From Candidatus Hydrogenedentota bacterium (GTDB lineage Bacteria; Hydrogenedentota; Hydrogenedentia; Hydrogenedentales; JAEUWI01), in NCBI GenBank assembly GCA_019637335.1, contig JAHBVV010000005.1, positions 62,001 to 126,000 on the forward strand: a DNA stretch of 64,000 bases. The letters run 5' to 3'. A program made the position numbers and the translations under genes. How positions within the stretch are numbered: the stretch's first letter is position 1; each line of letters starts with the position of its first letter. Shown here one piece after another: positions 2,165 to 2,682 of this stretch. The notes beneath the pieces were generated by a model. It searched no databases. It had not been told where the DNA came from and saw only the letters and a program-made list of their open reading frames with translations.

Positions 2165-2172
2165 AAAAAGTC
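2165..2172. repeat. Left 8-bp target-site duplication of the MITE
   Basis: AAAAAGTC lies directly outside the left terminal inverted repeat and is repeated exactly at 2675-2682. This is the footprint expected from transposase-mediated insertion. Confidence 0.8.
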
Positions 2173-2337
2173 GGCTCATCCGGTTTGAAGGTACATCGGC
2201 AACGATGGCGGCAAATATGGGTAGTTTGCTCGGTTCTCTTTTCCGGACGGCGATGCTATGAGCGTATACAAGATTCCTTGGACCTTGTCTGTAGCGCAGA
2301 CGGTATACTCGGTAGAAGAACTGGATGCCAACGCATT

Positions 2338-2432
2338 CTTTCGGCCCGAAGGGCCAACGGAGTTCTCAGCCCCGGGCAACGCCCGGGGATTGAGCGGCGG
2401 GTTTCTTATACGCCCTGAAAGGGCAGCGCAGT
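2338..2432. repeat. Left arm of internal multi-hairpin inverted repeat
   Basis: Contains in order GGCCCGAAGGGCC, CCCCGGGCAACGCCCGGGG and GCCCTGAAAGGGC. The same blocks recur in reverse complement at 2463-2557, and a degenerate copy of the first two occurs at 26226-26290, so this block is a dispersed repeat in its own right. Confidence 0.75.
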
Positions 2433-2462
2433 TGAACTTCAGAAACGCTGGACTGGCTCACC

Positions 2463-2557
2463 ACTGCGCTGCCCTTTCAGGGCGGGGAAGGTGGCGCCCC
2501 CGTATTCCCCGGGCGTTGCCCGGGGCTGGGAGCTGCACTGGCCCTTCGGGCCGAAAG
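2463..2557. repeat. Right arm of internal multi-hairpin inverted repeat
   Basis: Reverse complement of the 2338-2432 arm with local divergence around 2487-2505. The two arms can fold on each other or as separate short hairpins. Confidence 0.75.
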
Positions 2558-2674
2558 AGCAGTCGATACGATTACTCCGACAAAGGCCCCAACCAGCATA
2601 CATGGGCGGTTCCAGATAATTCGGGCACGGAGAAACGCCTGTGAATAATCCCGTACGCTCAAACCGGATGAGCC

Positions 2675-2682
2675 AAAAAGTC
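2675..2682. repeat. Right 8-bp target-site duplication of the MITE
   Basis: AAAAAGTC, identical to 2165-2172, directly outside the right terminal repeat. Confidence 0.8.

Follow-up and report, generated by a model that had tools for sequence, protein, structure and literature searches.

A probable non-autonomous ISL3-type MITE with an inverted pair of three-hairpin arms in Candidatus Hydrogenedentota

A 502-bp element occupies positions 2173-2674 of the window, i.e. the whole stretch of 64,000 nucleotides that was analysed. Its ends, flanks and copies indicate that it is very probably a non-autonomous MITE of the ISL3 type, carrying an inverted pair of three-hairpin arms. Two points we consider new: the palindrome array is a wider module that is not private to this MITE, and its middle hairpin H2 (with GGGCAACGCCC) is a landing site for IS231-like elements of the IS4 family.

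Structure and position of the element

The element is bordered by 22-nt terminal inverted repeats, GGCTCATCCGGTTTGAAGGTAC on the plus strand (2173-2194) and GGCTCATCCGGTTTGAGCGTAC in the minus-strand reading (2653-2674), which match at 20 of 22 positions (91% complementary). Both the sequence and the comparison of copy flanks identify AAAAAGTC as a perfect 8-bp target duplication at 2165-2172 and 2675-2682. The initial annotation had described the repeats and the duplication in the same terms, and had noted the absence of a transposase; indeed, the window copy contains only short ORFs of at most 128 aa, none of which is recognisable as a transposase. The left and right spacers (2195-2336 and 2559-2652) are conserved only among the copies within the host genome.

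Between the spacers lie two arms (2337-2432 and 2463-2558), which are 81% complementary and separated by a centre of 30 nt (2433-2462). They measure 96 nt each, one more than first estimated, and consist of three hairpins as had been claimed. The left arm contains H1 (GGCCCGAAGGGCC, 2343-2355), H2 (CCCCGGGCAACGCCCGGGG, 2370-2388, with GGGCAACGCCC at 2374-2384) and H3 (GCCCTGAAAGGGC, 2412-2424), and the right arm H3' (GCCCTTTCAGGGC, 2471-2483), H2' (CCCCGGGCGTTGCCCGGGG, 2507-2525) and H1' (GGCCCTTCGGGCC, 2540-2552). In mononucleotide shuffles 1.1 hairpins were expected, with a maximum of 3, against the six found here, and the fold has a z-score of -14.4 relative to shuffled sequence. Matches of the central arms to Rfam microRNA models were rejected as artefacts of a long hairpin.

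The hairpins are conserved in structure. A search of the host genome for H2, in which stem positions 3 and 4 were left free, yielded 71 occurrences; 69 of these are fully paired, and three pair types are found at the fourth stem position. Among 28 distinct H1-H2 arms 98.1% of the cells are paired, and the covariation score is 0.303, compared to 0.092 for shuffled and at most 0.074 for slid controls. This shows that the structure of H1 and H2 is kept, be it by selection or by template-switch correction of palindromes, where the latter could have produced the compensatory changes instead of selection.

The element is located between two divergent genes, encoding a PKD protein (start at 1981, minus strand) and a DUF1592 protein (start at 2867, plus strand), and fills most of the region between them. 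It may affect both neighbouring promoters, the consensus scan supporting this on the PKD side only. There, the sequence TTGCCA-17-TACGAT (2162-2134, minus strand) resembles a promoter and starts 2 bases from the duplication, in agreement with the distance given in the initial annotation. The -35 box that had been placed about 55 bases from the element on the DUF1592 side is unsupported, since the same scan found no plus-strand promoter-like site for that gene.

Copies in the host genome

The host is a member of Candidatus Hydrogenedentota, with an assembly of 7.16 Mb in 55 contigs. In this genome the element forms a repeat family: a search with its full length gave 85 matches, some 22 of which are near full length, mostly at 82-93% identity. 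Roughly 25 long copies are present, together with about ten fragments at contig ends. Since the ends of contigs C9, C14, C18, C20, C21, C22, C31, C35, C39, C47, C48 and C51 fall within copies, the copy count is a minimum. As a gauge of any preference for intergenic sites, stop-to-stop frames span 20 of 26 copies against 79% in the control, a measure that does not discriminate in such a G+C-rich genome.

The initial designation as a MITE with an 8-bp duplication is borne out at the level of the family. Of the 26 long copies, 12 are flanked by perfect 8-bp duplications, a number that rises to 14 if one mismatch is allowed, whereas a control that paired left and right flanks from different copies gave only 6 of 650; the duplication is therefore not due to chance. 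The duplicated targets are A+T-rich, at 76% against 38% at 100-400 bp upstream. In half of the copies no clean duplication is seen, which is put down to decay or recombination. Searches with the joined flanks identified empty sites, where the 8-mer is present once and the element is absent, within further repeats of this genome. The empty site of copy L003 is found at L008:2524-2603 (90% identity over 80 bp) and that of L034 in L108-L120; further ones were found for L002, L008, L011 and L012. These paralogues show that the borders of the element are exact.

Contigs C21, C22 and C39 hold sisters that are nearly identical to the window copy (98-100% over the compared ends), which supports the earlier suggestion of a fairly recent insertion. 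An orthologous empty site for the window locus was sought in genomes of the same genus; the DUF1592 gene is present there, the intergenic DNA could not be aligned and no PKD gene was found upstream. One copy (L035, C1:12967-13807) is interrupted between its arms by some 330 bp of unrelated sequence, itself bordered by GTAACACTTTAGCCGTATGAAG and CTTCATACGGCTAACGTATTAC, perhaps another MITE nested in the centre.

Affiliation with the ISL3 family

The 22-base end pattern was searched in a collection of 84,980 genomes. In Desulfobulbaceae UBA10518 (L158), a sequence identical to the right end of the window element (22/22, GGCTCATCCGGTTTGAGCGTAC) precedes by 60 bp an ISL3 transposase gene, the product of which matches PF01610 (8e-30) and scores above the cut-off of NF033550. 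Similar, perfect ends together with 8-bp duplications are seen in two complete ISL3 elements of finished plasmids, one in Pseudodesulfovibrio (GGTTCATCCGGCTAAAGCGTAC, duplication CTAATGGT) and one in Vibrio (GGTTCATCCGGTAAATCGATAC, duplication CATTTAAG), and in relatives of the same order ISL3 remnants terminate in GGNTCATCCG-type sequences. The ISL3 family, which the initial annotation had named as the first candidate, is thus supported by ends of the same type.

A search of the host assembly for the ISL3 transposase domain (PF01610) gave zero matches, and a lone site resembling the terminal repeat (C21:56775) has no transposase alongside. We therefore infer mobilisation in trans by an ISL3 transposase from the ends and the duplications: such an enzyme, since lost or missing from the assembly, would have cut and joined at the element ends. 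The window element shares the terminal sequence GGNTCATCCGG and the 8-bp duplication with ISL3-family insertion sequences, from which it differs by its size of 502 bp, the lack of a transposase and its palindrome cargo. Bacterial MITEs such as NEMIS, ERIC and RUP are 70-300 bp long (PMC3733652). Like these, the element is short, non-coding and gene-adjacent, with IS-like ends and target duplications; unlike these, it exceeds that size range, and carries six ordered hairpins that are found again next to the same ends in other species.

Nested IS231-like elements

Four copies (L031-L034) are 1.86-1.91 kb long and carry a DDE transposase, either whole or as a remnant. As they share their outer ends with the short copies, the MITE might be read as their internal-deletion derivative and thus as an IS4-family MITE. 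We hold this to be highly improbable, and the long copies were rejected as parents: the transposase gene belongs to an IS4 element that is inserted in one of the hairpins and bounded by inner ends of a different kind (CATAAGCG...CGCTTATG), unlike the GGCTCATCCGGTTTGA ends of the MITE. This inner element (ends CATAAGCGYTAACTT) is sited in H2 of the left arm with the 11-bp GGGCAACGCCC at both sides, and occurs in both orientations. Its transposase has the YREK signature and matches the IS4_1 model. L034 carries a different transposase at the same H2 position, and in relatives this type of IS4 element sits in hairpins that lack the MITE ends.

The IS231 subgroup has CAT-------AA--TAA ends, repeats of 10-12 bp and the YREK signature (PMC2266710). 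The inner element of L034 shows all three, with ends CATAAGCGTTAACTTAA, repeat GGGCAACGCCC and motif YRGRWQIELVFKRLK; it differs from the subgroup in its host phylum and in having its target within a mobile hairpin. In L034 (C1:890990-892135) the IS4-family transposase is intact (382 aa), and in the type A copies L031-L033 it is broken by frameshifts or stops. The target preference of IS231A is GGG-N5-CCC, which GGGCAACGCCC fits; the middle hairpin presents this motif and serves IS231-subgroup elements as a landing site. A sister copy (L042) has its right-arm H2 occupied by an IS4 element. Elements of this IS4 type are also found in H2-like hairpins of other genomes, with both ends in L228 and one end in L230. 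This makes three separate landings in MITE copies of the host, besides the hairpin insertions in two other genomes. One further IS4 insertion (L107) lies outside any hairpin. The 11-mers flanking the IS4 element of L228 (G036:C82), GGGCGTTGCCC and GGGCAGCGCCC, differ from each other, being closer in inverted than in direct comparison.

The composite of MITE and IS4 element has probably spread as a unit. In L031-L033 the MITE ends are 99.4-100% identical, whereas other copies have at most 95% identity to the left end of the composites, and L032 and L033 are flanked by perfect duplications that differ from each other. At least one composite would thus have been moved by the MITE's own ends. The nested element of L032 is oriented opposite to those of L031 and L033, so that a second insertion is possible; for movement as a unit, either this or an additional inversion is needed.

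The palindrome array as a module

The same six-hairpin array is found with other flanks (...ATACAATTCGCGTTCATTCG...) in a second repeat family of the host (L108, L110-L115 and L117-L120). A search of 59 relatives with the element minus its hairpins gave no match; the ends of the element are present in two genomes of the same genus. Elements in sister species (L161, L198, L204, L207, L212 and L214) have inverted-arm palindromes beside such ends, and their alignment with the window copy is limited to the ends and, partly, the hairpins. The paired-arm layout is also seen in L207 and L198, where the hairpin sequences are different. In the planctomycetes, one end adjoins such an array on a Pirellulales contig (L150), and two elements of 79 and 100 bp (L148 and L152) have the ends and lack the hairpins. 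Judging from the latter two, the array seems to be dispensable for mobility.

Alternative origins of the array

Paired inverted palindromes that occur in many copies, also outside the MITE, are reminiscent of REPIN/BIME elements, and with 12 Y1_Tnp genes in the host genome the array might have been moved by a RAYT (Y1 transposase) and then captured by the MITE. REP palindromes are moreover known as targets of insertion sequences, including the IS4-family ISRm22 at the axis of palindromy (PMC1525189), a likeness that the array shares. We nevertheless consider a RAYT-moved origin unlikely. The array was found within 1.5 kb of none of the 12 Y1_Tnp loci in a one-mismatch search, and no Y1 domain was detected near 36 array-bearing loci, although the positive control was. 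The array also differs from REP, BIME and REPIN sequences in having three hairpins per arm, a feature lacking in REP anatomy, as well as ISL3-type ends and no linked RAYT found.

The array might alternatively act as RNA, either as a structured transcript or as a transcription insulator, and be kept for a function of the host or of the element. H2 and H1 together correspond to the Rfam model RF01687, Acido-Lenti-1, which has been described as an RNA (PMC2864571). With 19.6 bits the window copy remains below the gathering score of 37 bits, which is passed by related arrays (L116, 37.1 bits; the MITE L214, 43.2 bits), so that parts of these belong to the family. The compensatory changes in H1 and H2, the very stable fold and the location between divergent genes fit the same idea. 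It seems improbable to us all the same: palindromic DNA yields the same pattern on both strands, a terminator-like U tract was looked for and not found, and the many copies, their pairing in inverted orientation and the mobile setting are more in keeping with a repeat than with an RNA gene. Matches to RF01687 were obtained in 46 of 68 genomes of Candidatus Hydrogenedentota, with as many as 73 scored in a single genome, and in none of 14 control genomes; at 8 of 17 sampled loci they form inverted pairs within 300 bp. In this phylum Acido-Lenti-1 behaves as a dispersed, often inverted-paired double-palindrome repeat, which differs from its description as an RNA in being half of a dispersed inverted repeat.

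In a sister species (G001), L207:1174-1219 and L251:1501-1696 match Acido-Lenti-1 at 53-55 bits, those of L251 as an inverted pair. The matches lie within a larger repeat shared by the two loci and adjoining CCGGATGAACC sequence, possibly another MITE subfamily.

Implications

Returning to the array as a mobile module, we tentatively suggest, at somewhat less than even odds, that Acido-Lenti-1, rather than being a family of RNA genes, represents one arm of a mobile double-palindrome module with a wide distribution. Such a module would move between unrelated element types (ISL3-type MITEs, the second repeat family and free copies), being kept as a structure and as an IS231-like landing site. 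The element explains many of the contig breaks of the host assembly, and the three-layer nesting of MITE, palindrome array and IS231-like element makes target choice testable layer by layer. A recent paper considers that Acido-Lenti-1 ncRNAs may regulate protease genes in Tannerella, noting how little is known of their function (PMC13298647). If the arrays are arms of a mobile palindrome module, Acido-Lenti-1 annotations of this kind need to be re-examined.
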